Source: Stomorhina lunata (lineage: Eukaryota; Arthropoda; Insecta; Diptera; Rhiniidae). Taken from it: a DNA stretch of 64,000 bases. The notes beneath the pieces are model-generated. The model made no database searches. It was not told where the DNA came from and worked only from the letters and a program-made list of their open reading frames with translations. Position numbers and translations under genes: made by a program. Shown one piece after another: positions 12,296 through 64,000 of the stretch (positions within the stretch are counted from its first letter, which is position 1; the number at the start of each line of letters is the position of its first letter). Location of the stretch: positions 115,739,248 through 115,803,247 of the forward strand of contig OW121741.1 of assembly GCA_933228675.1 (NCBI GenBank), written 5' to 3'.

Positions 12296-14050
12296 TTTTA
12301 GAAGAAATACAAAATTTTTCCAAAGTTTTCTATAAAATAGTAAAATTTTGCAAATTTTTCTAATTTACCTATAGAAGTTGTGAAATTTCGCAAAATTTTC
12401 TATAAAAATTTGAAAATTTTGCAAAATTTTCTATAGAAATAGGAAAATTTTTCAAAATTTTCTATAGAAATAGGAAAATTTTTCAAAATTTTCTATAGAA
12501 ATAGGAAAATTTTGCAAAATTTTCTATAGAAATAGGAAAATTTTGCAAAATTTTCTATAGAAATAGAAAAATTTTGCAAAATTTTCTATAAAAATAGGAA
12601 AATTTTGCAAAATTTTCTATAGAAATAGGAAAATTTTGCAAAATTTTGTATAGAAATAGGAAATTTTTGCAAAATTTTCTATAGAAATAGGAAAATTTTG
12701 CAAAATTTTCTATAGAAATAGGAAAATTTTGCAAAATTTTCTATAGAAATAGGAAAATTTTGCAAAATTTTCTATAGAAATAGGAAAATTTTGCAAAATT
12801 TTCTATAGAAATAGGAAAATTTTCTATAGAAATAGGAAAATTTTGCAAAATTTTCTATAGAAATAGGAAAACTTTGCAAAATTATCTATAGAAATAGGAA
12901 AACTTTGCAAAATTTTCTATAGAAATAGGAAAATTTTGCCAAATTTTCTATAGAAATAGGAAAATTTTGCAAAATTTTCTATATAAATAGGAAAATTTTC
13001 TATAGAAATAGGAAAATTTTGCAAAATTTTCTATAGAAATAGGAAAATTTTTCAAAATTTTCTATAGAAATAGGAAAATTTTGCAAAATTTTCTATAGAA
13101 ATAGGAAAATTTTGCAAAATTTTCTATAGAAATAGGAAAATTTTGCAAAATTTTCTATAGAAATAGGAAAATTTTGCAAAATTTTCTATAGAAATAGGAA
13201 AATTTTGCAAAATTTTCTATAGAAATAGGAAAATTTTGCAAAATTTTCTATAGAAATAGGAAAATTTTTCAAAATTTTCTATAGAAATAGGAAAATTTTG
13301 CAAAATTTTCTATAGAAATAGGAAAATTTTGCAAAATTTTCTATAGAAATAGGAAAATTTTGCAAAATTTTCTATAGAAATAGGAAAATTTTGCAAAATT
13401 TTCTATAGAAATAGGAAAATTTTGCAAAATTTTCTATAGAAATAGGAAAATTTTGCAAAATTTTCTATAGAAATAGGAAAATTTTGCAAAATTTTCTATA
13501 GAAATAGGAAAATTTTGCAAAATTTTCTATAGAAATAGGAAAATTTTGCAAAATTTTCTATAGAAATAGGAAAATTTTGCAAAATTTTCTATAGAAATAG
13601 GAAAATTTTGCAAAATTTTCTATAGAAATTCGAAAATTTTGCAAAATTTTCTATAGAAATTCGAAAATTTTGCAAAATTTTCTATAGAAATAGTAAAATT
13701 TTAGAATATTTTCTATAGAAATAGTCTAATTTTGCAAAATTTTCTATAAAAATAGTAAAACTTTGCAAAATTTTCTATAGAAATATTAAAATTTTGCAAA
13801 ATTTTCTATAGAAATAGTAAAACTTTGAAAAATTTTCTAGAGGAATAGTAAAATTTTGCAAAATTTTTTATAGAAATAGTAAAATTTTGCAAACTTTTCT
13901 ATAGAAATAGTAAAATTTTGCAAATTTTTGTAAAGAAATGCTAAAAATTTTCTTTAGAAACAGTAAAATTTTGCAAATTTTTCTGAAGAAATGACAAAAC
14001 TTTGCAAAATTTTCTATAGAAACAATAAAATTTTGCAAATATTTTTAATA
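12296..14050 (+). repeat. Satellite array A, 31-bp unit
   Basis: Tandem repeat of a 31-base unit built from GAAATAGGAAAATTTTGC and AAAATTTTCTATA. The core, about 12430-13640, is nearly homogeneous, and both edges are degenerate. Each unit has two palindromes, AATTTTGCAAAATT and TTTCTATAGAAA. Some units are shortened to about 21 bases (near 12820 and 12995) by loss of the GC-containing half. Confidence 0.95.
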
Positions 14051-15239: not shown

Positions 15240-16945
15240 TACTTATAGGAAATTTTTCAAAAATTTTCCATTTTTATAGAAATTTTTTCAAAAAATTTAC
15301 TATTCTTATGTAAATATTTAAAAAAATTACTATTTTTATATGAAACTTTTAAAGAATTTACTATTTTTATAGGAAATTCTTTAAAACTTTACTATTTTTA
15401 TAGGAAATTTTGAAAAAAAAATACTACTTTTATAGGAAATTTTTTTTTTTAATTTACTATTTTTATAGGAATTTTTAAAAAAATATACAATTTTTATAAG
15501 AAGTTTTTAAAAATTTACTATTTTTATTTAAAATTGTTCAAAGATTTACTATTTTTATAAGAAATTTTTAAAAAATTTACTATTTATATAGGAAATTTTT
15601 AAAAATTTACCATTTTCATAAGAAATTTTTCAAAAATTCTATTTTTATAGGAATTTTTTCAAAAATTTACTATTTTTATAGGAAAATTTTAAAAATTAAC
15701 TATTTTTATAAGAAATTTTTCAAAAATTTACTATTTTTTAGGAACTTTTTAAAAAATTTACTATTTTTTTTAGGAAATTTTTCAAAAATTTACTATTTTT
15801 ATAGAAAATTTTTCAAAAGTTCAAAGACATACTATTTTTATAGGAAATTTTTCAAAAATTACTATTTTTATAGGAAATTTTTCAAAAGTTTACTATTTTT
15901 ATAGGAAATTTTTCAAAAATTACTATTTTTATAGGAAATTTTTCAAAAAGTTACTATTTGCATACGAAATTTTTCAAAAGTTTACTATTGTTATAGGAAA
16001 TTTTTCAAAAATTTACTATTTTTATAGAAAATTTTTCAAAAATTTACTATTTTTATAGGAAATTTTTCAAAAATTTACTATTTTTATAGGAAATTTTTCA
16101 AAAATTTGCTATTTTTATAAGAAATTTTTCAAAAATTTACTATCTTTATAGGAAATTTTTCAAAAATTTACTATCTTTATAGAAAATTTTTCAAAAATTT
16201 ACTATTTTTATAGGAAATTTTTCAAAAATTTACTATTTTTATAGGAAATTTTTCAAAAATTTACTATTTTTATAGGAAATTTTTCAAAAATTTACTATTT
16301 TTATAGGAAATTTTTCAAAAATTTACTATTTTTATAAGAAATTTTTAAAAAATTTACTTTCTTTATAGGAAATTTTTCAAAAATTTACTATTTTTATAGG
16401 AAATTTTTCAAAAATTTACTATTTTTATAGGAAATTTTTCAAAAATTTACTATTTTTATAGGAAATTTTTCAAAAATTTACTATTTTTATAGGAAATTTT
16501 TCAAAAATTTACTATTTTTATAGGAAATTTTTCAAAAATTTACTATTTTTATAGGAAATTTTTCAAAAATTTACTATTTTTATGGAAAATTTTTTAAAAA
16601 TTTACTATTTTTATAGGAAATTTTTCAAAAATATACTATTTTTATAGGAAATTTTTCAAAAATTTACTATTTTTATAGGAAATTTTTTAAAAATTCAATA
16701 TTTTGAGAGGAAATTTTTCAAAAATTTACTATTTTTATAGTAAATTTTTCAAAAATTTATTTTTTTTATAGAAATTTTTTGAAAAATTTACTATTTTTAT
16801 AGGAAATTTTTCAAAAATTTACTATTTGTATAGAAAATTTTTGAAAAATTTACTATTTTTATAGAAAATTTTTCAAATATTCACTATTTTGATAAGAAAT
16901 TTTTCAAAAATTTACTATTTTTATCAAATTTTTAGAAAATTCCAG
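15240..16945 (-). repeat. Satellite array B, 31-bp unit, related to array A
   Basis: The unit is TTACTATTTTTATAGGAAAT plus TTTTCAAAAAT. By hand alignment its reverse complement matches the array G/A unit at about 25-26 of 31 positions, against about 22 in direct orientation, so it probably lies inverted to array A. Both edges are degenerate. Confidence 0.95.
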
Positions 16946-22321: not shown

Positions 22322-24500
22322 ATTCTTGTGGACAACTTTTCGATACCAAAATGTTTCTATAGAAAATTTTTTAATAAAAAAATATTTCTGTAGAAAATTT
22401 TTCAATAAAAAATTTTTGGTAAAAAATGTTTCTATAAATTTTTTTTTTATAAAAAACGTACCTAAAAATAATGGTTCGATAAAAAACGTTTCTATAGAAA
22501 ATTTTCATAAAGGCAATTTTCACATAGAAAATTTATCTTTGGAAAATTTTTCCATTAAATTTTTCTATAAAAAAGGTTTCCATAGAAATTTTTTTGATAA
22601 AAAATTATTCGAAAAAATATTTCCAATAAAAATAAGAATTTTTTTGATAAAAATTTTCCTCAGTAAATTTTTCTCAATAAATTTTTCTATAGAAAATTTT
22701 TCGATAAAAAAATTTCAGTAGAAAATTCTCCGATAAAAAATCTTTCCATAGCCTTTTTTTATAACAATGATTTTCTATGAAAAACTATTCTATACAAAAT
22801 GTTTCTATTTAAAATTTTCTATAGAAAAACTTTTATAAAAAAATTTATCTATAGAAAAATTTTCGAAAAAAAAATTTTACTTTAGAAAATTTTTCGATAT
22901 AAAAATTCTTCTATAGAAAAATTTTCGATATAAAAATTTTTCTATAGAAAATTTTCGATAAAAAAATTTTTCGATAAAAAAATTTTTCTATAGAAAAATT
23001 TTCGATAAAAAAATTTTTCTATAGAAAAATTTTCGATAAGAAAATTTTTCTATAGAAAAGTTTTCGATAAAAAAATTTTTCTATAGAAAAGTTTTCGATA
23101 AAAAAATTTTTCTATAGAAAAATTTTCGATAAAAAAATTTTTCTATTGAAAAATTTTCGATAAAAAAATTTTTCTATAGAAAAATTTTCGATAAAAAAAT
23201 TTTTCTATAGAAAAATTTTCGATAAAAAAAATTTTCGATAAAAAAAATTTTCTATAGAAAAATTTTCGATAAAAAAATTTTTCTATAGAAAAAATTTCGA
23301 TAAAAAAATGTTTCTATAGAAAAATTTTCGATAAAAAAATGTTTCTATAGAAAAATTTTCGATAAAAAAATGTTTCTATAGAAAAATTTTCAATAAAAAA
23401 ATGTTTCTATAGAAAAATTTTCGATAAAAAAATTTTTCTATAGAAAAATTTTCGATAAAAAAATTTTTCTAAAGAAAAATTTTCGATAAAAAAATTTTTC
23501 TAAAGAAAAATTTTCGATAAAAAAATTTTTCTATAGAAAAATTTTCGATAAAAAAATTTTTCTATAGAAAAATTTTCGATAAAAAAATTTTTCTATAGAA
23601 AAATTTTCGATAAAAAAATTTTTCTATAGAAAAATTTTCGATAAAAAAATTTTTCTATAGAAAAATTTTCGATAAAAAAATTTTTCTATAGAAAAATTTT
23701 CAATAAAAAAATTTTTCTATAGAAAAATTTTCGTTAAAAAAAAATTTTCTATAGAAAAATTTTTTTTATCGAAAATTTTTTCATACAATTTTTTTGATAC
23801 ATATTTTTCTATAGAAAATTTTTTTATAAAAATTTTTCGAAAATATTTCTGTTAAAAATGTTTATATAAAAAAATGCCTGTATAAATTATTTTTTTTTAA
23901 TAGAAAATTGTTTTATCAACAATTCTTCTATACAAATTTTTTAATAAAATTGGTTCTTTTAAACATTTTTCTTAAAAAAGTTATTCTATAGAAAATTCCT
24001 CAATATTTTTTTTTATATTTTCTTTTCAAAATTTTTCTATACAAAACTTTTCGATAAAATTTTTTCATAGAAATGTTTCAATATAAAAATTTCTGTGGAA
24101 AATAAACATTTTTCTATAGAAATTTTCTCGATAAATATTTTTATATAGAAAATTTCTTAACAAATATTTTTCTATAGAAAATATCTCTCTATGGAAAGGT
24201 TTCTATAAAAAAAAATTTCGATAAAAAAATTTTCTTGTTCAAAATATTTCTTTTGAAAAATTTTTATTAAACAAATTTTTCGTTACAGAATTTGTTTTAA
24301 TATACAAATTTTTCGATAAAATAATTTTTGTAGAAGGAACTTTTTCGACTAAGTAACTTGTTTATATGAGATTGTTCTATAGAAAATTTTCGGAAAAACA
24401 ATTTTGGAAAAAAAAATATAAAGAAAACGTTTTGACAAAAAAAAACTTTTTTCTATAGATATCTTTTTTATGAAATAAAAGTTTCTGTGGAAAATATTTA
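22322..24500 (+). repeat. Satellite array C, 31-bp unit
   Basis: The unit is CTATAGAAAAATTTTCGATA plus AAAAAAATTTT. The homogeneous core is about 22910-23760, with strongly degenerate flanks on both sides. It keeps the CTATAG and AAAATTTT words of the other arrays but has CGAT in place of the GCAAAA half. Confidence 0.95.
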
Positions 24501-31980: not shown

Positions 31981-33386
31981 CCCTAGAAGACTAACATCCA
32001 TAAATTTGACGTTTAGTGTTTTTTGTTGTTGTTACACGAACATCTAGTGACCTAATAACATTAGGTTATAAATTCAACAAGTGCTTTTTCCAATAGTTTT
32101 GAGCTGTGGCATAAATATGAACAAAGCATAACATAGTACAACACCAAAATCTTGAACCAGTTGAAACCCCCAAAATCTGAAAGCTTAGAAAAACCCTAGC
32201 TGGGTTTTGAATTATTATTAGCTTAGTTTTTTCTATAATTTTTGAAGTTTTCAAAAAAACATGTACTGATACCTAAGTCTATATCTTGTTAATTATTCAA
32301 AGTATTACTCTTCTTCCTTCAGAAGATTATTACCTCTTATTTAAATCTAAAAGTTTTTTCTTGAGATAAAATCAGAAAAACAACATCTTAGTCAAAACAG
32401 CAAAGCTTTCAAAAATAATGTAAAATTTCGATAGAGATTTTAATTGTTATTGATAGAATATACATATAAGCATACCGACGGCCGGAAGGATGGACGGATG
32501 GACGGACGGATGGACGGACGGATGGACGGACTGATGGATGGACGGACGGATGGACGGACGGACGGACGGACGGATGGACGGACGGACGGATGGACGGACG
32601 TAGGGATGGACGGACGGACGGACGTATGGACGGACGGACGGAGGGATTGAGGGACGGTCGTTGTTTATATGGTACAAATGTCTCTGCGATGTTGTTTTTT
32701 TGATTTTATATTAAGGCAGAATTTTTAGATCTAATTAAGAGGTAAAAGTTTGCTAAAACAAGAAATATTTCGAATTTTTTCGAACTTTTTTTGAAAATTG
32801 TAGTAAACTTCAAAAATTAATTAAATAATTCAAAACCCAACTAGGATTTTTTTCTTCCATCATAAGATTTCAGAATTTGGGGGTCTTAATTGGTTCAATA
32901 TTTTAAAGCTAAAAAATGTGCTGTTGTGTTACTAGTCATTGAAGTACTCTTAGGGCTATAATATGAAAAGGCTGTACGTAAAACATACTTGAATTTAGTT
33001 TAAAGAGCAAAATTTTCCATTGACCATCTAAATTATCATTTAATACCTGGAATTGAACAAAAAAACTGCAAAAATAAACCTAGTGGCAAAGATTACTGTA
33101 GCTATTACAGAAGTAGAAAAGTGTAATTTTAGGAAGGAACGGCTTCTTTAGAATAATCTTTCACTTCATAGTAACAGCGTTTAATACAATTCAATAAACA
33201 CTATATTTATTCGACTTGGTATTTTTGAATGATTTAAATAAGAGTTTGCCTTATTATGAGTTATTTAATAATTTTAAATCCAAAATTTTAGCGCAATAAT
33301 TGAAGAAATTTGGAAAGATGCCATAGTCATTTATTCATCGTGGTATTCGTTTTAATTTACTTTTAAATAGTGTCATCTTTCTAGGG
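31981..33386. mobile_element. piggyBac-like element 3, non-autonomous fold-back (1.4 kb)
   Basis: TTAA at 31977-31980 and 33387-33390 flank ends that begin CCCTAGAAGA (left) and CCCTAGAAAGATGACAC (reverse complement of the right). The right end closely matches the canonical piggyBac terminus CCCTAGAAAGATA. The arms remain inverted copies well inside: 32160-32220 pairs with about 32820-32890 (AATTCAAAACCCARCTAGG and TTTGGGGGT on the right strand). The centre is a tetranucleotide satellite. No transposase is encoded. Confidence 0.75.
32477..32660 (+). repeat. GGAC/GGAT tetranucleotide satellite
   Basis: About 45 units of GGAC or GGAT with occasional substitutions, at the centre of piggyBac-like element 3. 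The long open frames on both strands here (runs of DGRM or RPSV) are a by-product of the repeat. Confidence 0.95.
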
Positions 33387-34749: not shown

Positions 34750-37740
34750 TTTTATATAAAAAAATCTTTCGGTTTTAAATTTTTTATAAAACAATTTTTG
34801 TGCAAAAATTTTTCCAAAAAAAAAAAAATTGTTGTTAAAATTTTTATGAAAAAAATTTAAGTGTTAAAATTTTTTTAGAAAAATTTTTGGTGTAAAATTT
34901 TTTATAGAAAAAATTTTGAGTGCTAAAGTATTTATAGAAAAATTTTTGGGTGTAAAAATGTTTATAGAAAAATTTTCGGTTTGTGTTTTTTTTTTTTTTA
35001 ATTTCGGTGTTAAAATTTTTTTAGAAAAATTTTTGGGTGTAAAAATTTTTATAGAAAAATTTTTGAGTACTAAAATATTTATAGAAAATCTTTTGGGTGT
35101 AAAAATTTTTATAGAAAAATTTTTCGTTTTTTAATTTTTTTTTTTTTAATTAAAAAAAGTTTGCGGTCTATAAAATTTTTATAGAAAAATTTTGGTTCTC
35201 CAAAATTTTTATAGAAAAATTTTCGGTGTATAAAGTTTTTATATACAAATTTTCGGCATTCAAAATTTTTAAAGAAAAATTATAGATCTATAAAATTTTT
35301 ATAAAAAAATATTCTTTCTATAAAATTTCTATAGAAAAATTTTCGGTGTTAAAATTTTTATAGAAACATTTTTGATGTAAAAATTTTTATAGAAAAATTT
35401 TCAGTGTAAAAAATTTTTATAGAAAATTTTCAGTGTAAAAAATTTTTATAGAAAATTTTCAGTGTAAAAAATTTTTATAGAAAATTTTCAGTGTAAAAAT
35501 ACAAAATTTTCAGTGGAAAAATTGTAAGAAAAATCTTCGGTCTTAAAATTTTTATACAAAAATTTTCGGTGTTAAAATTTTTATACAAAAATTTTCGGTG
35601 TTAAAATTTTTATAAAAAAATTTTTGGTGTTAAAATTTTTATAGAAAAATTTTCGGTGTTAATATTTGTATTGAAAAATTTTCAAAAAAAAAAATTTATA
35701 GAAAAATTTTAGATCTTAAAATTTTTGTAGAAAGATTTTTGGTCTTAAAAATTTTATAGAAAAATATTCAGTCTAAAAATTTTTATTGAAAAATTTTCGG
35801 TGCTAAAATTTTTATTGAAAAATTTTAGGTTTTAAAATTTTTATAGAATAATTTTTGGTCTAAAAATTTTATAGAAAAATAATCGGTGTTAAAATGTTTT
35901 TTAGAAAAATTTTTGGTCTTCGAAACATTTATAGAAAAATTTTCGGTCTTAAAATTATTATAGAAAAAAATTCGGTCTTAAAATGTTTAAAGAAAAATGT
36001 TCGGTCTTAAAATTTTTATAGAAACAATTTCGGTCTTAAAAATTTTAAAGAAAAATTTTAGGTCTTAAAATTTTAAAAGACAAATTTTCGGTGGCAAAAT
36101 TTTTATAGAAAAATTGTCGGGTGTTAAAATTTTTATAGATAAATTATCGGTGTTAAAATTTTTATAGAGAAATTTTTGCTTTAACATTTTTATAGAAATA
36201 ATTCGTTGTTAAAATTTTTAGGAAAATATTTTTGGTATTAAAATTTTTGGGAAAATATTTTTCGTGTTAAAATTTGTATAGAAAAATTTTCGGTATTAAA
36301 TTTTTTATAGAAAAACTTTGGGTGTTAAAATTTTTATAGAAAAATTTTCGGTATTAAATTTTTTATAGAAAAACTTTCGGTGTTAAAATTTTTATAGAAA
36401 AATTTTCGGTCTTAAAATTTTAATAGAAAAATTTCCGGTCTTAAAATTTTTATAGAAAAATTTTCGGTCTAAAAATTTTTATAGAAAAATTTTCGGTCTA
36501 AAAATTTTTATAGAAAAATTTTCGGTCTAAAAATTTTTATAGAAAAATTTTCGGTCTAAAAATTTTTATAGAAAAATTTTCGTTCTAAAAATTTTTATAG
36601 AAAAATTTTCGGTCTAAAAATTTTTATTGAAAAATTTTCGGTCTTAAAATTTTTATAGAAAAATTTTCGGTCTTAAAATTTTTATAGAAAAATTTTTGGT
36701 CTTAAAATTTTTATAGAAAAATGTTCGGTCTTAAAATTTTTATAGAAAAATTTTCGGTCTTAAAATTTTTATAGAAAAATTTTCGGTCTTAAAATTTTTA
36801 TAGAAAGATTTTCGGTCTTAAAATTTTTATAGAAAAATTTTCGGTGTTAAAATTTATATAGAAAGATTTTCAGTATTAAAATTTTTATAGAAAAATTTTC
36901 AACTTAAAATTTTTAAAGAAAAATTTTCGGTCTAAAAATTTTTATAGAAAAATTTTCGGTCTAAAAATTTTTATAGAAAAATTTTCGGTCTAAAAATTTT
37001 TATAGAAAAATTTTCGGTCTTAAAATTTTTATAGAAAAATTTTCGGTCTTAAAATTTTTATAGAAAAATTTTCGGTCTTAAAATTTGTATAGACAAATTT
37101 TCGGTCTTACAAACTTTATACAAAAATTTTCGGTCTTAAAATTTTTAAAGAAAAATTTTGGTTTTAAAATTTTTATAGAAAAATATTTGGTCTTAAAAAT
37201 GTTATAGAAAAATTTTCGGTCTTAAAATTTTTATTGAAAAATTTTCGGTTTTAAAATTTTTATAGAATAATTTTCGGTCTAAAAATTTTTATCGAAAAAT
37301 TTTTGGTGTTAAAATTTTTTTTAAAAAAATTTTTGGTCTTTAAAACTTTTATAGAAAAATTTTCGGTCTTAAATTTATTACAGCAAAAATTTCGGTTTTA
37401 AAATGTTTAATGAAAAATTTTCTGTATTAAAATTTTTCTAGAAAAATTTTGGGTGTTAAAATTTTTATAGAAAAATTTTGGTTGTTAAGATTTTTGTAGC
37501 AGAATTTTCGGTTTAAAAATATTTATAACAAAATGTTGGTGTTAATATTTTAATACAAACATTTTAGCTTTTAAAGTATTTATAGACAATTTTTCGGTTT
37601 TAAAATTTGTATAGTGTTAAAATTTTTATAGAAAAATTTTCGGTGTTAATATGTTAAAATTTTTAGTACAAAAATTTTTTATGTAAATTTTTTTTAAATA
37701 TTTTATGGCTAAAAATTTATATTATTAAGACTTTTTAAAC
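34750..37740 (+). repeat. Satellite array E, ~29-bp unit (GGTCTT/GGTGTT type)
   Basis: The unit is GGTCTTAAAATTTTTATAG plus AAAAATTTTC, 29 bases. GGTCTT and GGTGTT variants alternate in blocks. The core 36360-37080 is the most uniform. Open frames inside (for example 34916-35134) arise from the repeat period and are not genes. Array F is the same family in the opposite orientation. Confidence 0.95.
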
Positions 37741-38075: not shown

Positions 38076-38079
38076 ATAT
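38076..38079. repeat. Target-site duplication ATAT, left
   Basis: ATAT immediately outside the left TIR. The same four bases follow the right TIR at 41838-41841. Confidence 0.6.
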
Positions 38080-38100
38080 GGGTCAATTTCAAAAAAAACG
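38080..38100 (+). repeat. Left 21-bp TIR of the Sola-like transposon
   Basis: GGGTCAATTTC followed by eight A and CG. Identical, inverted, to 41817-41837. Confidence 0.9.
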
Positions 38101-38479
38101 CAATTTTTGTGTCCCCGCACTTTAAACTACTATTTTAGGTAAAAAAACAAAAAACAAAAAAAAAACAAAAATGTGAGATTGAACAGCAAGGAATATGTAA
38201 CAAAAAACGTAATTCTTAAGTTTGTATGTTAGTTTTTCTGTTTTTTCAGAATAGTGTTTTGATTCTTCCTCTGACTACTTCCATACAAAAACATGTGTCC
38301 CCCGTTAGAATTTTTAGTAAACAAAATAAAATAAAATCAAGGAAAAAATAAATATGAAACATTTAATAACTGTTTTCGAATAGTTGCCTTTCTTTCTTAT
38401 GTTTTGATTTGTTATAGTTGTCAAAACTTAATTAGTAAGAATTTGGCGTTGCAAACAAAAGTTGTCCCCACAATTTGCG

Positions 38480-38490
38480 TTGAGCGTCAC
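38480..38490 (+). promoter_or_regulatory. Subterminal motif TTGAGCGTCAC, left end
   Basis: One exact copy 400 bp inside the left end. Two diverged copies, TGAGCATCAC, lie in intron 1 at 38673-38682 and 38829-38838. A transposase-binding role is inferred from symmetry with the right end. Confidence 0.5.
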
Positions 38491-38647
38491 TTTTTTATAA
38501 ATCAAGTAATATTACGCGTTTTCAATTTCCATTTAAATAAAGTAAATAACGGAAGGAAAGAACAAAGTTTAGTTATTGCAAAAGTGAAGAAACGAAAAAA
38601 AAAATCTGTTAAAAAAAGTGTGCATATACGTAGTTTTTGTAAACGCC

Positions 38648-41089
38648 ATGGTAAGGGCATGATCAAATTTCATGAGCATCACGCTAATTTTTTTAAAAGT
38701 GAATATATTAAACGTAAAAAATTGATGCTGACAACCATTGTTTACATGATTTCAACTCATTTTTTTATGACTTGTGAGTTTGAGAAATAAATTGCCTACG
38801 ATAAGAACCAAAATAGGCAAAAATTTCATGAGCATCACTTTTGATTTATATTGCTTCGTAGCTTAAAATGCTTAATTTTGATTTTATTTTTTAATTTTCA
38901 AGAGTAAAACAACAAAATTAACGGCGGCTGAAAGGGCACGGAGATATAGAGAAAAAATAAAGCTCGATAAAGCACGTAATGACGAGTATAAAAGAAAGAA
39001 GAAAGAAAGGTATAATCGTGGTATATTTGAGATAAATTTTAATTGTTAATGACTGATTCTGTTTTCAAATAGCAACGCGAAACGGATGAAAAGAGGTGAC
39101 ATGCCGAAAAAAATGCTTCTGCGTGAGCGAGTTAAAAATAGAGACTATGTACGTGCGAGGAAGTTGAAAAAAGCTGCCGAGCGTCAAAATACCGATACTT
39201 TAAGTAGTGCAATTACTCAAGCCCATGGATTACCGCAATTTATAAGCAATGAAGAGGAAGATTTACCAGCAATACCAACTAAATTAAATGTGAACACTTC
39301 TGAAAACAAAAGAGTAAAAAGGTGTAATAAGCAGCTAAAAAACAAAAATCGCGAATTACAATTACTAGTTGACCGTTTAAAGGACAAACTTAAAGACGCT
39401 GAAAAGAAGAAACAAAAGTACAAAAAAAAATTACAAAGATTTAAAAAAAATACTAAAGATACAAAAAGCTTAAGTTCGATTGTTAGAGATTCAAAGGAAA
39501 CTTTCAGTCTTTTAAAACAAAAGTATACTCAGAAAAAAAACATTTGCCCAGATATGGCTTCTAAAATATTAAAGCGTTATAGATTAAAAAAAATGTTGGC
39601 CAATGGAAAAAAAAAATTGCCGGAACCACTGTCCAGAAAAAACACAACCGTAACGGATTTTTTTATGAGGGACGACGTTAGTAGAGCTTGCGCTGGAAAG
39701 AAAGAAACCGTTACACGCGGTAAAATAAAAAAGCAAAAACGATATCTGTCTGATACGATGAAAAATCTGTACAAAATATTTAAATCCGAGAACAGTAAAA
39801 TTAATATGTCCTACATATCTTTTACGCGGCAAAAACCTTTTTTTATAAAAAGTCCTTCTGTTTCTGACAGAAATACCTGTGCTTGTATGGATCACGCTAA
39901 TATTGATTTAAAGGCCTCCAAGCTATTTCTACAAAAAGCTCTTGTTGAAAGAAATCCTGCTCAGTTAGTTAAAAAAATTATGTGCGATAGTGAGTCGGCT
40001 TTATGCGCTTGGGGTCTTTGCAAAACTTGCAAGTCGAAAAAAAATGTTATAGGCTCAACTAACAGTTCAGATGAATGCAAATGGTTTCAATGGGAGTCTG
40101 TTACGGAGAAAAGATTGAATAAGAAGAATATTTCCCAGGATAAATATGATGTTAAGGTCATGAAAAAGGTTGAAAAAGTTTCAACAGTCGCTAAGTTGGT
40201 GAGTGAGTTTCATAAAGACATGCTGAAGTTTAAAAAACATAACTTTAATGTTCGAAATCAGTACCGTGCATATCGTTTTTGCAAGGATAATTTGAGCGAA
40301 ACAGAAGTTTTGATTCACATAGACTTCTCCGAAAACTACATGTGCAAACTTTCAGAAGAAGTGCAATCGTTTCACTTTGGAGCTTCGCGAAATCAAGCAT
40401 CTCTCCATACCGGCTTAATTTATTTAAAGAAATTTGAAAAGCCCGTGAGCTTCTGCACGATTTCTTCGGATTTAAATCATGGACCGGGTGCTATTTGGGC
40501 TCATTTAGATCCAATAATTGATTATTTGAAAGATTGTGCTCCAGAAATATCGACCATACACTTCTTTTCGGATGGGCCATCTTCTCAGTATAAGCAAAAA
40601 AACAATTTTTTCTATTTCTGCAATCGAATATTTGAAAAAAAATTTAGATGCGCAACATGGTCATTTTTTGAGAAATCTCATGGAAAAGGTGCAGCAGATG
40701 GAGTTGGTGCTGTCGTGAAGCGAACCGCAGATTCGCTTGTTGCTCACGGAGCAGACATAGTAGGTGCAGAAGAATTGTACCACACGCTTCTAGGCAAAAT
40801 TGATGTGAAATTGTTTTACGTTAGTCCAAATCAAATTTTTAACATCAACAAAACATTGCCCAAAAATTTAAAGACAGTTCAAGGCACGAGAGATATTCAC
40901 CAAATAATTACAAAATCCAGAGGTGAATTGATTTACAGATCTCTCTCGTGCTTTTGCAACTTAAACCTCTGGGAGACCGGAAATTTATGCAACTGCCACA
41001 AACTTAATTTGAAAGTGGTAAAAATGAATGAGAATGAAAAAAAACAAAGCCGCTTATCATATCATGAAGTTTATTCAGATTCAGAATAA
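38648..41089 (+). CDS. Three-exon transposase-like protein, 708 aa, candidate DDD enzyme
   Basis: Exon 1 is the ATG itself (38648-38650, context GCCATGG) followed at once by donor GTAAGG. Exon 2 is 38903-39009 and exon 3 39073-41089. The introns (38651-38902 and 39010-39072) start GT, end AG and keep the frame. In the 708-residue product, 2-75 holds two basic, DNA-binding-like blocks (AERARRYREK, then RERVKNRDYVRARK). A charged coiled coil lies at about 115-165. A cysteine cluster at about 306-356 (CAC..H, then C....C..C) could bind zinc. Next come three acidic motifs typical of an RNase H-fold transposase: HIDFSENY (D454), FFSDGPSSQYK (D537) and SHGKGAADGVG (D579). A second cysteine-histidine cluster, CFC and CNCH, is at 663-679. 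No stop interrupts it. The catalytic role is inferred. I place it with uncharacterised animal proteins sharing these three motifs, possibly Sola transposases. Confidence 0.75.
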
Positions 41090-41248
41090 TGAAATGAAAA
41101 TTTATAAATTAAGTTATTCTTTTCCTCAAATATTTAATTACTACTTTAATATTGAATTACTTCCTTTTTTCCATTTTTGTTATAGAAATCAAAGAATATG
41201 TTTAGTTTTGAATGAAAATTTTTGTTTTTTTATTTACTTTTTGTAAAA

Positions 41249-41254
41249 AATAAA
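41249..41254 (+). terminator. Polyadenylation signal AATAAA
   Basis: AATAAA 160 bp after the transposase stop codon, followed by a T-rich stretch. This is the expected position for 3'-end processing. Confidence 0.55.
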
Positions 41255-41312
41255 GTTTTTTTCGTTAAACATAAAATTTTGCATTATTTCTTGTTTACAT
41301 GTAAAAAAATCT

Positions 41313-41343
41313 CTTGATCGTCACAAAATATCTTGAGCGTCAC
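41313..41343 (+). promoter_or_regulatory. Subterminal motif pair, right end
   Basis: CTTGATCGTCAC (41313-41324) and CTTGAGCGTCAC (41332-41343) lie 19 bases apart. An inverted copy, GTGACGCTCAAG, is at 41647-41658. Confidence 0.5.
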
Positions 41344-41816
41344 ACGTAGTTTTTTTCCTTAGTATGCTTATAATTGCAGTTTTATTTAAATACCGCGTTA
41401 CAAGTCTATTACTTTACAAGTAACCTATAAGTTCAAGTCTGTTTTTTTATCAAAAATTTACAAATTTTTATATTAACATTTTAAAATAACTAGTCGCTTA
41501 AAAAAAAATTAAAAATCAAGGTGAATCATGATAATCGAAGTTGTGATTTTTGCAAAAGTCCATCTTGAGTAACAAATGAACATCGTAGTAAGCTTGAATT
41601 CCAAATATTTTTGCATTTTTAGTGATTTTTGATACATATTTGGTGTGTGACGCTCAAGATAGAAATCATAGAAAACCTTAAAAAAATGAAAAAATATTAA
41701 ATTTTTTGAGAGCCTAAAAGTACCACCGGATTCTTCATCAATTTCTATATAAATTGGTCACTCTTACAGGCGAATTGAAAAAACTTTAAAAATAAGCAAA
41801 AAAAACTCGTTGTGTA

Positions 41817-41837
41817 CGTTTTTTTTGAAATTGACCC
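41817..41837 (-). repeat. Right 21-bp TIR of the Sola-like transposon
   Basis: CG, eight T, then GAAATTGACCC: the exact reverse complement of the left TIR, followed by ATAT at 41838-41841. Confidence 0.9.
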
Positions 41838-41841
41838 ATAT

Positions 41842-43139: not shown

Positions 43140-45830
43140 CATTCCTACAAAAAAATAGTAGGGGAAAATGTTTGAAATTTTCCTATAGAAATAACAAAAT
43201 TTAGAAAATTTTTTATAAAAACAGAAAAATTTTTGAAAGTTTTTTACTGAAATAATTAAATTTTGGAATGTTTTATTTCATAACTTTAAAATATGAAAAG
43301 TTTGCTAAATAAAGAGTAAAATTTCTTAAATATTTCTAACTAAAAAGTTAAATTTTGGAAATTATCTTAAAGAAATTGCAAAAGTTTTCTCAAAGAAATA
43401 GTAAATTTTTCGAAATTTTACCAAAAAGTAGAAAATTTTCAGAAATTTGTCCAAAGAAAATTTGGAAAATTTCTTAAAGAAATAGTAAAATTTCGGAAAT
43501 TTTCCTAAAGAAATAATAAATTATCGAAAATTTTCCTAAAAAAAAAGAGTAAAATTTTGAAAGTTTTTCTAAAAAAATAAATAATAATTTTTTTATAAAA
43601 ACGAATATTTTGCAAATCAAAAATTAAAAAAACAAAAAAAAATTTACAATGAAAATTTTCCATAAAAAAAAATTTACACCGAAAATTTTCTATCAAAAAT
43701 TTTATAACGAAAATTTTCTATAAAAAATTTTGGACTAAAAATTTCCTATAAATAATTTTACCCAAAACTTGTCTATAAAAAATTTTACACCAAAAATTTT
43801 CTATAAAAATTTTACACCAAAAATTTTTCTATAAAATTTTTTTCACAGAAAATTTTACATCGAAAATATTGTATAAGAAATTTTACACAGAAAAATTTTT
43901 TTAAAAAATTTTACACCAAAAATTTTCTATAAAAATATTTACATCAAAAATTTTCTACTAAAAAATTTTGCATTGAAAATTCTATAAAAAAATTTGAAAT
44001 AAAAAATTTCTATAAAAAAAATTTACACCAAAAATTTAGTTTTCTGAAAAAAAAATTTTACCGAAAATTTTTTATCAAAATTTTTTATCGAAAATTTTCT
44101 ATAAAAAAAAATTACAATAAAAATTTCCTATAAAAAATTTTACACCGAAAACTTTTTATAAAAAATTTTACACTCAAAATTTTCCATTAAAAATTTTACA
44201 CCGAAAATTTTCTATAAAAAATTTTACACCGAAAATTTTCTATAAAAAATTTAACACTGAAAATTTTCTAAAAAAAATTTACACCGAAAATTTTCTTTAA
44301 AAATTTTACACAAAAAATTTCTAGAAAAAAATTGTACACCAAAAATTATTTTTTTTAATTTTTTGTCCGAAAATTTTATAACAAAAATTTTGTATTAAAA
44401 ATTTGACATCGAAAATATTCTATAAAAAGTTTTACACAGAAAAATTTTTTTAAAAAATTTTACACCGAAAATTTTCTATAAAAAATTTTACACCAAAAAT
44501 TTTCTTTTAAAAAATTTTACACCGAAAATTTTCTATAAAAAAATTTACAGAGAAATATTTGAATAAAAAAATTTTGCATCAAAAATTCTATAAAAAAATA
44601 TTTGACGTCCAAAATTACTATAAAAAAATTTTACAACAAAAATTTTCAATCAAAATTTTTACAAAAATTGTATACTAATAATTTTCTAAACAAAATTTTT
44701 TACTGAACATTTTCTATCAAAATTTTTTACAGAAAATTTTCTATCAAAATTTTTTACAGAAAATTTTCTATCAAAATTTTTTCACCGATATTTTCTATAA
44801 AAAGTTTTACACCGAAAATTGTTTATACAAATTTTAAACCGAAAATTTTTTATAAAAATTTTACAAGGAAAATTTTTTATAAAAAAATTTATATCGAAAA
44901 TTTTTTATCAAAAATTTTACACCAAAAACTTTCTATGAAAAATTTTACACCGAAAAATTTCTATAAACACATTTACAGCAAAAATTTTCTATAAAAAATT
45001 TTGAAACAAAAATTTCTATCAAAAAAATTTCACATCGAAAATTTCTATAAAAAAAAAATTTACACCAAAAATTTTCTATAAAAAATTTTGCATTGCAAAT
45101 TTTTTATCAAAAATTTTAAACCCAAAATTTTCCATAAAAATTTTTAAACCGAAAATTTTCTAAAAAAAAAAATTTACCGAAAATTTGCTAAAAAAAATTT
45201 TTCACTGAAAATTTTCCATAAAAATTTTGCACAGAAAATCTTCTATAAAAAATTTTATACCGAAAATTTTCTATAAAAAATTTTTCATAGAAAATTTTCC
45301 ATAAAAAATTTTACACCAAAAATTTTGTACAATGAGTTATAAACCAAAACTTTTCTATTACAAATTTTAGAGGAAATATTTTTTATAAAATATTTCACAC
45401 TGAAAATTTCTTATAAACAATTTTACACTGAAAATTATAGATAAAAAATTTTTAGACGGAGTGTTTCTATCAAAAATTTTACACCGAAAATTTTTTATAA
45501 AAAATTTTAACACCAAACATTTTCTTTAAAAATGTTACACAAAAAAATTTCTATAAAAATTTTTGCACCGAAAATTTTCTATAAAAAATTTTCCATAAAA
45601 AATTTTCTATAAAAAATTTTCCATAAAAAATTTTCTATAAAAAATGTTCCACCAAAAATTTTCTATAAAAAATTTGAACACCGAAAATTTTCTATAAAAA
45701 TTTTTCACCAAAAATTTTCTATTAAAACTTTTTTCACCAAAAATTTTCTATCAAATATGTTTTACCGAAAATTTTTTACAAAAAATTTTAAACCAAAAAT
45801 TTCTATAACCGAAAACTTTCAAATTTGTTT
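43140..45830 (-). repeat. Satellite array F, ~28-bp unit, inverted relative to array E
   Basis: The unit is ACACCGAAAATTTTC plus TATAAAAAATTTT. Its reverse complement, with CGGTGT followed by AAAATTTTTTATAG, is the array E unit. The asymmetric CGGTGT/ACACCG word makes the inverted orientation clear. More degenerate than array E, with GAAATAGTAAAA-type units at the left edge (43150-43560). Confidence 0.95.
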
Positions 45831-47039: not shown

Positions 47040-48475
47040 TTTATAAGTAGAAATAGTAAAATTTTGGAAATTTTTTATAGAAATAAACAATTTTGCAAAT
47101 TTTTCAATAAAAGTAGCAAATAAAGAGTAAATTTTAAAAAAAATTCTATACAAATACTAAAATTTAAAAAAAAAAAAAATTCTATACAAATACTAACCTT
47201 TTTAAAAATTTCTTATAGAAGTAGTAAAATTTTGCAAAATTTTCTATAGAAATAGTAAAAATTTGCAAAATTTTCTATAGTAATAGAAAAATTTTGCAAA
47301 ATTTTCTATAGAAATACAAAAATCTTACAAAATTTTCTAAAGAAATAAAAATTTTGCAAAATTTTCTATAGAAATAGTAAAACTTTGCAAAATTTTCTAT
47401 AAAAATAGTAAAACTTTGCAAAATTTTCTATAAAAATAGTAAAACTTTGCAAAATTTTCTATAGAAATAGTAAAATTGTGCAAAATTTTCTATAGAAATA
47501 TAAAAATTTTACAAAATTTTCTATAGAAATAGTAAAATTTTCGAAAATTTTCTATTAAAATAGTAACACTTTGGAAAATTTTCTATAGAAATAGTAAAAT
47601 TTTGGAAAATTTTCTATAGAAATAGTAAAATTTTGGAAAATTTTCTATAGAAATAGTAAAATTTTCGAAAATTTTCTACAGAAATAGTAAAATTTTCGAA
47701 AATTTTCTATAGAAATTGGAAAATTTTGCAAAATTTTCTATAGAAATAGTAAAATTTTCGAAAATTTTCTATAGAAATAGTAAAATTTTGGAAAATTTTC
47801 TATAGAAATAGTAAAATTTTGGAAAATTTTCTTTAGAAATAGTAAAATTTTGGAAAATTTTCTATGGAAATAGTAAAATTTTGTAAAATTTTCTATAAAA
47901 ATAGTAAAATTTTGCAAAGTTTTCTATAAAAAAATAAAAAAAAAAATAATATAAAAAAATAAAAATAGTAAAATTTTGAAAAATTTTCTATAAAAAATAG
48001 TAAAATTTTGCAAAATTTTCTATAAAAAATAGTAAAATTTTCGAAAATTTTCTATAGAAATAGTAAAATTTTGGAAAATCTTCTATAGAAATAGTAAAAT
48101 TTTGGAAAATTTTCTATGGAAATAGTAAAATTTTGCAAAGTTTTCTATAAAAAATAGTAAAATTTTGCAAAGTTTTCTATAAAAAATAGTAAAATTTTGC
48201 AAAGTTTTCTATAAAAATAGTAAAATTTTGCAAAATTTTCTATAGAAATAGTAAAATTTTGCAAAATTTTACTATTTTAATAGAAAATTTTGCAAAATTT
48301 TATTATTGTTATAGAAAATTATATTGAAATAGTCAAATAGAAATGGTAAAACTTTGCAAAAATTTCTATAGAAATAGTAAAATTTACAAAATTTTCTATA
48401 GAAATAAAAAAAATTTTGCTTAATATTCCATATAAATAGTAAAATTTTACTAAATTTTCCATAGAATTGTAAAAT
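47040..48475 (+). repeat. Satellite array G, 31-bp unit, same family as array A
   Basis: The unit is GAAATAGTAAAATTTTGC plus AAAATTTTCTATA, with GCAAAA, GGAAAA and CGAAAA variants. It differs from array A mainly by AGT for AGG. Near 48260-48310 the orientation flips for one or two units (TTACTATTTTAATAG). Confidence 0.95.
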
Positions 48476-54740: not shown

Positions 54741-56431
54741 TATATTCGGCTGTGCCGAATCTTATATACCCACCATCAAGTTGTGTTAAATTCAGAAACA
54801 GGATGCAGCTAATTCAAAATCTGGACCAAAACTGAAAAAATCGCTAAGCTAATGCCGTAGCTTTATAGTTCAACATTTAAAAATATTTTAGTGGTTTCCC
54901 CAGTATTTACTTTGACAAAAATTCGGTCTCATACCCGGGAATAGTTTTACAGTAATAAGTTGTTAAATACTTTTCGTTGTGCTTAATATGTAGTTAGGCT
55001 AAACACGTTAATAGTAATACGGCAGGTCCATATATTTCGTTAGGAGTTCCTAATGCATTCATCATATATAAAATCTGGACTGAACATTGATTGATGCCTA
55101 TCTAATTTCATAGGTACAATCTTAATATAATGAATGTACCTCCAAATCTTTTTGATTGTAGATATAAAAACGGGATGTTATATATATAAGAATTATAGCC
55201 AAATGTTGACCGATTGTTACAAAATTTTACACACTGGCTGGTATATATAGAGCTTATTCTTGCATTTAGTGGCCATAGCTACCATAGTTTCTAATTTAAT
55301 AGCTTTAAAGTGGCCTTTGCTAAAATTTTTGGTTTCCGTGAGTGTTTTTTATATGAAATCTAAAGTCAAATATGGACTGATTCCTATAAAATTTGATAAA
55401 CTGATCAAAAATTGCATAAAACTTCCCTAGCTATTACAATTGTATTCAATTTATCAGCATTAATGTGTTTCCCGGGGCGGGGTTGTATGGGAGCTCTAAC
55501 TAAATTTGAACCGATTTTGTCCATTTTCAAAATACATCTTTTTCAAGACATCCAAAATACTTTCGTAAAATTTTGTTCCTCTAGCTCTTTTCGTTAAGGC
55601 GCTATCGTGCTTTTATCTGATGGACAAACGGACATAAACAACCTTTTCTTTATGTATTTTTGTGTTTCCATAAGTTTTTAGTATGGGAGCTATGGTCAAA
55701 TGGTGACCGATTGTGACAAAAAACACACTGGCTGGCATTGACATAAGACATTCTTGTGCTTAATTTAGTTTTAGTAGCTTTTGTGTTTTCGAAAGTTTTT
55801 TATATGGGAGCTAGGTCAAATGGTGACCGATTGCGACAAAATTTTGCACACTGGCTGGCATTGATATAAGACTTTCTTATGCAAAATTTAGTGGTTATAT
55901 CTAGTATACTTTAAGATTTATTTATTTAAGTGTATTTTAGGTGAAATTTAGGCTGTTTTCGTAAGTTTTTTGTATGAGAGCTATGGCTAACTGTGAACCC
56001 ATTTTGATGAAATTTTATACGCTGCCTAGGGCTAATGTAGAACTTCTATATACTAAATTTTATCAGCATAGCTGCTATAATTTGTCATTTATTAACAAAT
56101 AAGCGATTAGCCTAGACGAGGTTATACGGGAGCTATGGTCAAATGTGAATCGATTTTGCCCAATTTCAATATCAACATTTTCTCAGAGATAAAGAATATT
56201 CTTACTAAGTTTCAGTGAGCTAGCTCCTTTCGTTTAGGCGTTATCGTGATTTCAACAGACAAACAGACAGACGGACAGACAGACGGACATCGCTCAATCG
56301 TCTAAGAATTTCATAAGGATTCAGAATATATATCGTTTTTGGTTTTTGAGCCAATATTAAGGAAATTACAAACGGAATGACAATCTCAATATACCCACCA
56401 TTCTATTTGAAGGTGGGTATAAAAACACAGT
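54741..56431 (+). repeat. Dispersed repeat with internal ~120-bp units, inserted in a tandem array
   Basis: It starts with a TTCGGCTGTGCCGAA hairpin (54745-54759) and TATACCCACC. It ends with a 10-bp stem, TATACCCACC/GGTGGGTATA (56390-56399 and 56412-56421). Several internal units read GGGAGCTATGGTCAAAT, GGTGACCGATTGTGACAAAA and ACACTGGCTGGCATTGA, near 55196, 55690, 55810 and 55980. Near 56255-56290 a GACAGACGGACAGACAGACG run precedes CGCTCAATCGTCTAAGAAT. I recall similar sequence as abundant in blowflies and house flies (memory only). No coding frame. Confidence 0.7.
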
Positions 56432-62399: not shown

Positions 62400-64000
62400 T
62401 TATCCTTGACTCCCAGTGGAGCATAGGGCCTCAACCATCCTTTTATATCGAACTTTATTGCAAGATGTTAGGCATACATCATTCCACGAATAGTTTGCTG
62501 CTTGTTACTCCGCATCAATTGACCTTCTCCACGTTCTAGCAGGTGCACCAACACGACGGCCGCTTCCTTGTGAATTCCAACGAAGCGCTTATCGAGCAAT
62601 GTTGGTATTGGCCTTCGAAGTGTGTAGCCTATCCATCGCCATTTTCATTGACATACCTCTATAGAAGAAGGGATTTGGTTTGTAGCGTTTAGTAGATCTT
62701 CATTTCTTATGCGGTTTGGCCACCATAAATTAAGGATTTGCCGCAAGCATTTGCTTTCAAAGGTTTGTAGGCGCTTATCGATGGCATTTGTGCGTTTCCA
62801 AATTTTGCAGCCGTAATACAAGATGAACTTGACATTCGAGTTATATATTCGTAACTTAGTTGTTGTTGATATTTGCCGAGATTTCCATATACAATAGTTC
62901 GGAGATTGCCGTATGCAGATTTTGCCTTAATAATATGTCATTCAATATCCTCATCGGCGCTACCTTTTGTAGATACCAAACTGCCAAGATAATTAAAGGT
63001 ACCTACACATCCAATACCCTCGTTATACACATTGATGTGTGGCGACGGGTTTGCGCCATAGCCTCCAGGCATAATCTTTGTCTTGGAAATATTGATTTCC
63101 AGTCCAGCTGCCCGAGATTCAACAGTAATAGCGCTAGTGTTTTCTTGAAGGTGAGCTGGTCTTTGGCTTAGAAGATATACGCCATTGGCGTATTCCAAGT
63201 CCCCGAGTTGCTTAAATGGTGTCCATTGGATACCACGTCTACCATTCAGTGCCGTGCGCATTATATTGTCGATGACAAGGATAAAAAGTATAGGTGATAA
63301 TATACATCCTTGTCTTACTCCAGTAGTAACTTCGAGCGGATTAGACAATTTACCTTTATGTAGAAACCGGCATTTTCGTTGGCATGTTACGGTTTTCTAA
63401 AACTCTCCATAGATAGCACCTGTTCACACTGTCGAAGGCCTTCATAAATTTGATAAACGCTAGATAAATGGGGGTGAGGAATTCATTACATTGCTCCAGT
63501 ACTATTCTTACTTTGTTGATTAGATTAACACAAGATCTATTCTCTCGGAATCCAAACTGATTTTCGCGGAGTGTTTCAGAAACAGCGTCAGACATTCTAT
63601 TGAAAATTACTCGACTTAGTATTTTGCTCGGTATTGGAAGAAGTGTTATTCTCCTGTAGTTATTGCAGTCTTTAGAGTCACCTTTTTTTTATTTTGACTA
63701 GTATACCTTCTTTCCAGGAGGCTGGCAGAGCTTCCTCCTCTAATATTTTATGTACAAATGGGTGACACAGTCTCGCCGATCCTTTAACGTCACATAAAAG
63801 CATCTCCGCTGATATATTGTCATTGCCCGGGGCCTTGTTATGCTTAAGGCTTTTAATGGCATTCTTCACTTCTTGTATTGTTGGTGGGCTCTCTGAAATT
63901 CCACTGAATAAACAGTCATGGTTGGTTTCATTTTTCACTTCCGTCAGCGCCTCTAATCCAATGGGATTGTTTAATGTTGACTGGAAGTGTTCCGTCCATC
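62400..64000 (-). pseudogene. Non-LTR retrotransposon ORF, reverse transcriptase and C-terminus, inactivated
   Basis: The minus strand enters from the right edge. In order it carries: EALTEVKNETNHD, PTIQEVKNAIKSLKHNKAPG and ISAEML (start of the RT domain); NNYRRITLLPIPSKILSRV; QFGFRENRSCVNLI; AFIKFMKAFDSVNR; TTGVRQGCILSPILF; a LEYANGVYLLSQR block; GLEINISKTKIM; FNYLGSLVSTKGSADEDIE; then WRWIGYTLRRP, ALRWNSQGSGRRVG and VEALCSTGSQG before a stop at 62400-62402. It needs at least four frame changes. The first catalytic aspartate is lysine (IKF at about 63450) and the YADD box reads YANG (63181-63192), so it cannot work. The C-terminal WRWIGHTLRR...GRP pattern resembles RTE/BovB-like elements; the clade is tentative. 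The endonuclease would lie beyond the edge. Confidence 0.85.

Follow-up and report, generated by a model that had tools for sequence, protein, structure and literature searches.

A structurally intact DNA transposon with a predicted spliced transposase gene, probably of the Sola group, in the fly Stomorhina lunata

The window analyzed here, a repeat-rich stretch of 64,000 bases from contig OW121741.1 of Stomorhina lunata with 25.7% GC, contains a DNA transposon of 3,758 bp at positions 38080-41837 (Table 1). An original prediction, made from the letters of the window, had described its 21-bp terminal inverted repeats (TIRs) as perfect, and the two ends are indeed identical at 21/21 bases (38080-38100 against 41817-41837), with mismatch beginning at base 22. 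Together with the flanking ATAT on either side they can be read as a perfect inverted repeat of 25 bp. ATAT is palindromic, which leaves the length of the duplication ambiguous on a single copy: the flanks are equally compatible with a 4-bp ATAT duplication, with a 2-bp duplication of TA or AT and a slightly longer element, or with none, and these cannot be told apart. The TA variant, with its slightly longer element end, would correspond to a feature of Tc1/mariner elements. The ATAT duplication proposed earlier is therefore plausible, being present on both sides, while its description as clean goes beyond what a palindrome can prove. Elsewhere in the window, the TIR 21-mer matches only three sites, each with 5 mismatches (the limit set), and no empty-site paralogue was found within the 64 kb.

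Between these ends lies a single gene, whose predicted spliced frame (exons 1-3) comprises 708 amino acids (aa) followed by a stop. As had been claimed, this frame is free of stops once two introns, both GT-AG, are removed. Exon 3 lies within an open frame of 678 codons; only 4 stop-to-stop open reading frames of at least 130 codons occur in the window and the second longest has 152 codons, which at this GC content places the gene beyond chance.

Homologues of the 708-aa protein numbered 370 at E<=1e-3 (7,989 candidates scored), and conservation was counted over the 120 homologues listed of these 370 matches, which with the window protein make up the 121 rows of alignment A1. The named proteins among those listed come from hemipterans, moths, butterflies, beetles, a spider and fish, and are recorded as uncharacterized or hypothetical. 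Where at least 80% of the 120 homologues have a residue, 70 alignment columns are conserved at 95% or more, and the window protein keeps 70/70; leave-one-out retention for the homologues themselves runs from 0.89 up, with a median of about 0.985. We find the gene product to be a conserved transposase. Superfamilies with a Pfam transposase model include Tc1/mariner, hAT and piggyBac. The window protein has no Pfam match at E<=0.01, and at E<=1 only DUF745 appears (0.079, below the DUF745 cut-off); 47 members of A1 scanned at E<=0.01 gave four families, in one member each and no transposase family among them, and NCBIfam gave no match for the four family proteins tried. The lack of a convincing Pfam or NCBIfam match helps to account for the uncharacterized or hypothetical labels of the named members.

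In a tree of 50 proteins the window protein pairs with P0002 (100/99) and then with P0003 (100/99), in a group that also includes P0007 from a planthopper and P0012 from a psyllid. Over 60 of the 121 alignment rows, 18-24 residues follow the core in the window protein, P0002 and P0003, and 33-377 in the other 57. With so few residues after the core, this clade looks like a compact form of the transposase, some records being perhaps incomplete. Nilaparvata lugens LOC111052160 (P0007) and the Cacopsylla, Parasteatoda, moth, beetle and fish homologues share the architecture and conserved residues of the window protein, but their C-terminal part is longer. Neither a C-terminal remnant 3' of the stop nor a second transposase fragment was matched by tblastn in the window outside the gene region. 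On visual inspection, the transposase in P0066 and P0069 looks as if it were joined to an OTU-type protease domain in the long C-terminal region; a Pfam scan of both at E<=0.01 gave no OTU family. Relatives with flanking DNA were also sought, and none of the 25 pattern matches in viral_contigs or the 52 in genome_contigs was confirmed, an absence that says little about animals since these collections hold viral, bacterial and archaeal contigs.

Three aspartates mark the putative catalytic core: D424 is conserved in 120/120 homologues, D507 in 119/120 and D549 in 120/120. In the predicted model these acidic residues sit on strand 1, on strand 4 and in the helix after strand 5. E540, directly after strand 5, is also conserved (119/120), and we infer that D549 rather than E540 is the third metal ligand. 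Upstream of the core, the coiled-coil region is predicted as a long helix, and the Cys/His cluster, with six cysteines in 120/120 homologues and histidine H281 in 99%, probably binds zinc. Searching PDB by sequence gave only weak matches, with no transposases among them. Since the full-length predicted model had no PDB match at or below 1e-3, the core was refolded alone, and its model has an RNase H-like fold with the acidic triad, as in retroviral integrases and RNase H-like transposases. The viral structure library likewise gave no match at or below 1e-3, with weak mixed rows that included RNases H and terminases. The likeness to retroviral integrases and RNase H-like transposases lies in the predicted core fold and in the order of the three acidic residues; sequence identity, in contrast, is 5-13% (50 rows of structure matches), and the third residue of the window protein is Asp and not Glu, with the spacing D-82-D-41-D. 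On the model, the catalytic core is of the RNase H-like D-D-D type, in predicted fold and predicted catalysis.

The non-coding ends carry repeated motifs of their own. Over 1,571 bases (38080-38902 and 41090-41837, intron 1 included), TGAGCGTCAC recurs most often among 10-mers containing five or more G/C, with six matches at no more than one mismatch; across 500 random sequences matched in dinucleotide composition, no such 10-mer had more than four. Window-wide, 6/6 of the matches at this level lie inside the element: one on the plus strand before the ATG, two plus in intron 1, and two plus and one minus after the stop, so that the two ends do not simply mirror each other in strand and position. 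The 5' end also has three copies of TGTCCCC, where 2000 Markov sequences average 0.0185 and never exceed 2; the rest of the window, both strands counted, has two more. Both repeats are putative subterminal transposase sites.

Table 1. Positions of the transposon's features in the window.
Feature	Position	Strand	Remarks
ATAT, left flank	38076..38079		Putative target-site duplication; ambiguous since palindromic
5' TIR, 21 bp, GGGTCAATTTCAAAAAAAACG	38080..38100	+	Identical to 3' TIR
TGTCCCC, exact copy 1 of 3 at the 5' end	38110..38116	+	Others at 38296 and 38463
TGAGCGTCAC subterminal motif	38481..38490	+	Putative transposase site
TATA-box-like hexamer upstream of ATG	38496..38501	+	Consensus match only
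Exon 1, coding part	38648..38650	+	ATG only, then donor GTAAGG
Intron 1 (inferred), 252 bp	38651..38902	+	GT-AG
One-mismatch copies of TGAGCGTCAC	38673, 38829	+	Inside inferred intron 1
Exon 2	38903..39009	+	Conserved basic N-terminal motif LTAAERxRRYREK; score above shuffles
Intron 2 (inferred), 63 bp	39010..39072	+	GT-AG; two in-frame stops
Exon 3	39073..41089	+	Coiled coil, Cys/His cluster, RNase H-like core, C-terminal CxC pairs, stop
Predicted catalytic core	40265..40867	+	D424, D507, D549 (P0001 numbering)
AATAAA polyadenylation-type signal	41249..41254	+	3' of stop
Two subterminal motifs	41315..41343	+	TGATCGTCAC at 41315, TGAGCGTCAC at 41334
TGAGCGTCAC subterminal motif, inverted	41647..41656	-	
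3' TIR, 21 bp	41817..41837	-	Identical to 5' TIR
ATAT, right flank	41838..41841		

The Sola superfamily, with Sola2, was reportedly introduced by Bao and colleagues in 2009. One account gives Sola transposons a DDD transposase, 4-bp duplications, TIRs between 11 and 1124 bp long and a total length of mostly 2-9 kb (PMC10741241). In another, Sola2 chimeras of an amoeba have imperfect TIRs of 21 bp and duplicate AT-rich 4-bp sites, including ATAT (PMC3627910). The element described here resembles these descriptions in its DDD-type transposase with conserved D424/D507/D549 and in its size of 3,758 bp with 21-bp TIRs, which fall within about 2-9 kb and at least 11 bp; its AT-rich ATAT flank is compatible with a 4-bp duplication, but palindromic. 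None of the features checked against Sola is in conflict. The element probably works like a Sola-type transposon and probably is one, by comparison with descriptions of that group and not with Sola sequences. It belongs to a known kind of transposon and not to a new one; the suggestion that it might be undescribed was not borne out, as its features agree with those of the described Sola group.

Taken together, the best explanation is a cut-and-paste DNA transposon of autonomous type that is structurally intact, to which we give a probability of roughly 0.87; among known groups it fits Sola (Sola2-like) best. The earlier proposal of an apparently intact autonomous transposon with a spliced gene is supported, and the gene, as we find, encodes a conserved transposase. 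In the mechanism that we propose, a spliced mRNA would yield the 708-residue transposase (basic N-terminal motif, coiled coil, Cys/His cluster, D-D-D core and CxC pair), which would bind the TIRs and the repeated subterminal TGAGCGTCAC, cut both GGGTCAA... ends with the help of metal ions that the three aspartates coordinate, and integrate the element into AT-rich DNA with a duplication of probably 4 bp (ATAT). A closer filing within the described Sola2 group is fairly probable, given the matching size, TIR length and DDD residues and the compatible duplication, but the comparison is one of described features, which are general and not unique to Sola, and the duplication length is unproven. 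That the transposase instead represents a lineage described neither as Sola2 nor otherwise, namely a family without a Pfam model, spread across insects, spiders and fish, whose clade around the window protein is compact (without the C-terminal region), has an ATG-only exon start and includes an intact, possibly mobile copy, seems improbable to us. As for mobility, the identical TIRs and the full retention of conserved columns point to little decay after insertion, and the identity of these short TIRs together with the undamaged gene would be compatible with recent activity. An intact-looking copy that no longer moves, being silenced or crippled in its regulation or ends, is nevertheless a real possibility, somewhat short of even odds: no other copy of the TIR end lies in the window, and nearby satellite arrays, such as that at 34751-37614, would suggest repeat-rich, perhaps silent chromatin, against which stand the same identical TIRs and the conserved columns, all kept. 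A domesticated host gene lying between inverted repeats by chance would also have an intact frame, but the gene is packed together with the repeats and subterminal motifs into a single 3.76-kb unit, 568 bp lying ahead of the ATG and 748 bp behind the stop, and this explanation is highly improbable.

The splicing of the transcript is a prediction. The frame of exon 2 is closed upstream by a stop at 38879, with no ATG between that stop and the exon, and the start codon must therefore come from an exon further upstream. Exon 2 alone (36 residues, a short query) gave no match by tblastn and was therefore tested by alignment scores against shuffles: its peptide reaches a mean of 67.2 against the N-termini of 53 homologues, compared with 33.7 +/- 1.8 for 500 shuffles. 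Altogether 45 combinations of ATG, donor and acceptor are open, 20 of which (15 distinct donors) reach the exon-2 motif in frame. Scored with an approximate matrix drawn up from general knowledge, the donor following the ATG directly as GTAAGG reaches 5.36, the sole positive value among the 15, and the runner-up -0.17. This supports the ATG-only exon of the original prediction as the predicted start, and as the best on offer. A different splice model, with another upstream start exon or another intron-2 donor/acceptor pair, we consider unlikely, although exons carrying only an ATG are unusual and, with the motif at or near the protein's own N-terminus in 59/120 homologues, such an exon is not general in the family. 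For intron 2, unspliced read-through runs into two consecutive stops, and the exon 2/3 junction aligns without gaps with P0007; the alignment of P0008 starts only just downstream of it. Several observations weigh against the chosen junctions: P0011 and P0014 show a one-residue gap exactly there, exon 2 extended beyond its donor scores higher than the spliced form (73.8 vs 67.2), and the donor at 39009 is weak (-1.15). In view of the gap and the higher read-on score, the other in-frame pairs were listed, ten in all; of these, 39020/39096 scores slightly higher at its donor (-0.06) and retains ERYNR, which resembles the homologues. The pair 39009/39073 was kept because acceptor 39096 would delete NAKRMK, similar in P0002, P0007, P0008 and P0009; acceptor 39073 is moreover pyrimidine-rich. 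It is the most likely intron 2 as predicted from these alignments.

Transposon groups that have been studied less can be approached, in biochemistry and for gene-delivery tools, through apparently intact copies; in this one the transposase is compact, the ends are defined and there are candidate binding sites. Additionally, a profile built from A1 would label the currently uncharacterized proteins of a family with at least 370 members in the searched database, for which neither Pfam (47 members) nor NCBIfam (4) gave a convincing match.

Around the transposon, a reverse-transcriptase fragment at about 62609-63583 on the minus strand, split between two frames and with 12 relatives, is a decayed retroelement. 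The statement that all neighbouring elements are dead holds for this fragment, the only other coding trace followed. Separate AT-rich satellite arrays occupy 12369-14045, 15243-16924, 22348-24329, 34751-37614, 43682-45808 and 47180-48475; several have units near 29-31 bp or multiples, and words such as AAAATTTT and CTATAGAAA recur in some of the units, as if these were related. The transposon starts about 460 bp after the fourth of these arrays. Finally, as a possible hint to the host, a GACGGACG-type tract at 32477-32657 and a stretch at 55658-56420 containing GGGAGCTATGGTCAAA and CAGACGGACAG would resemble non-coding DNA of higher flies.
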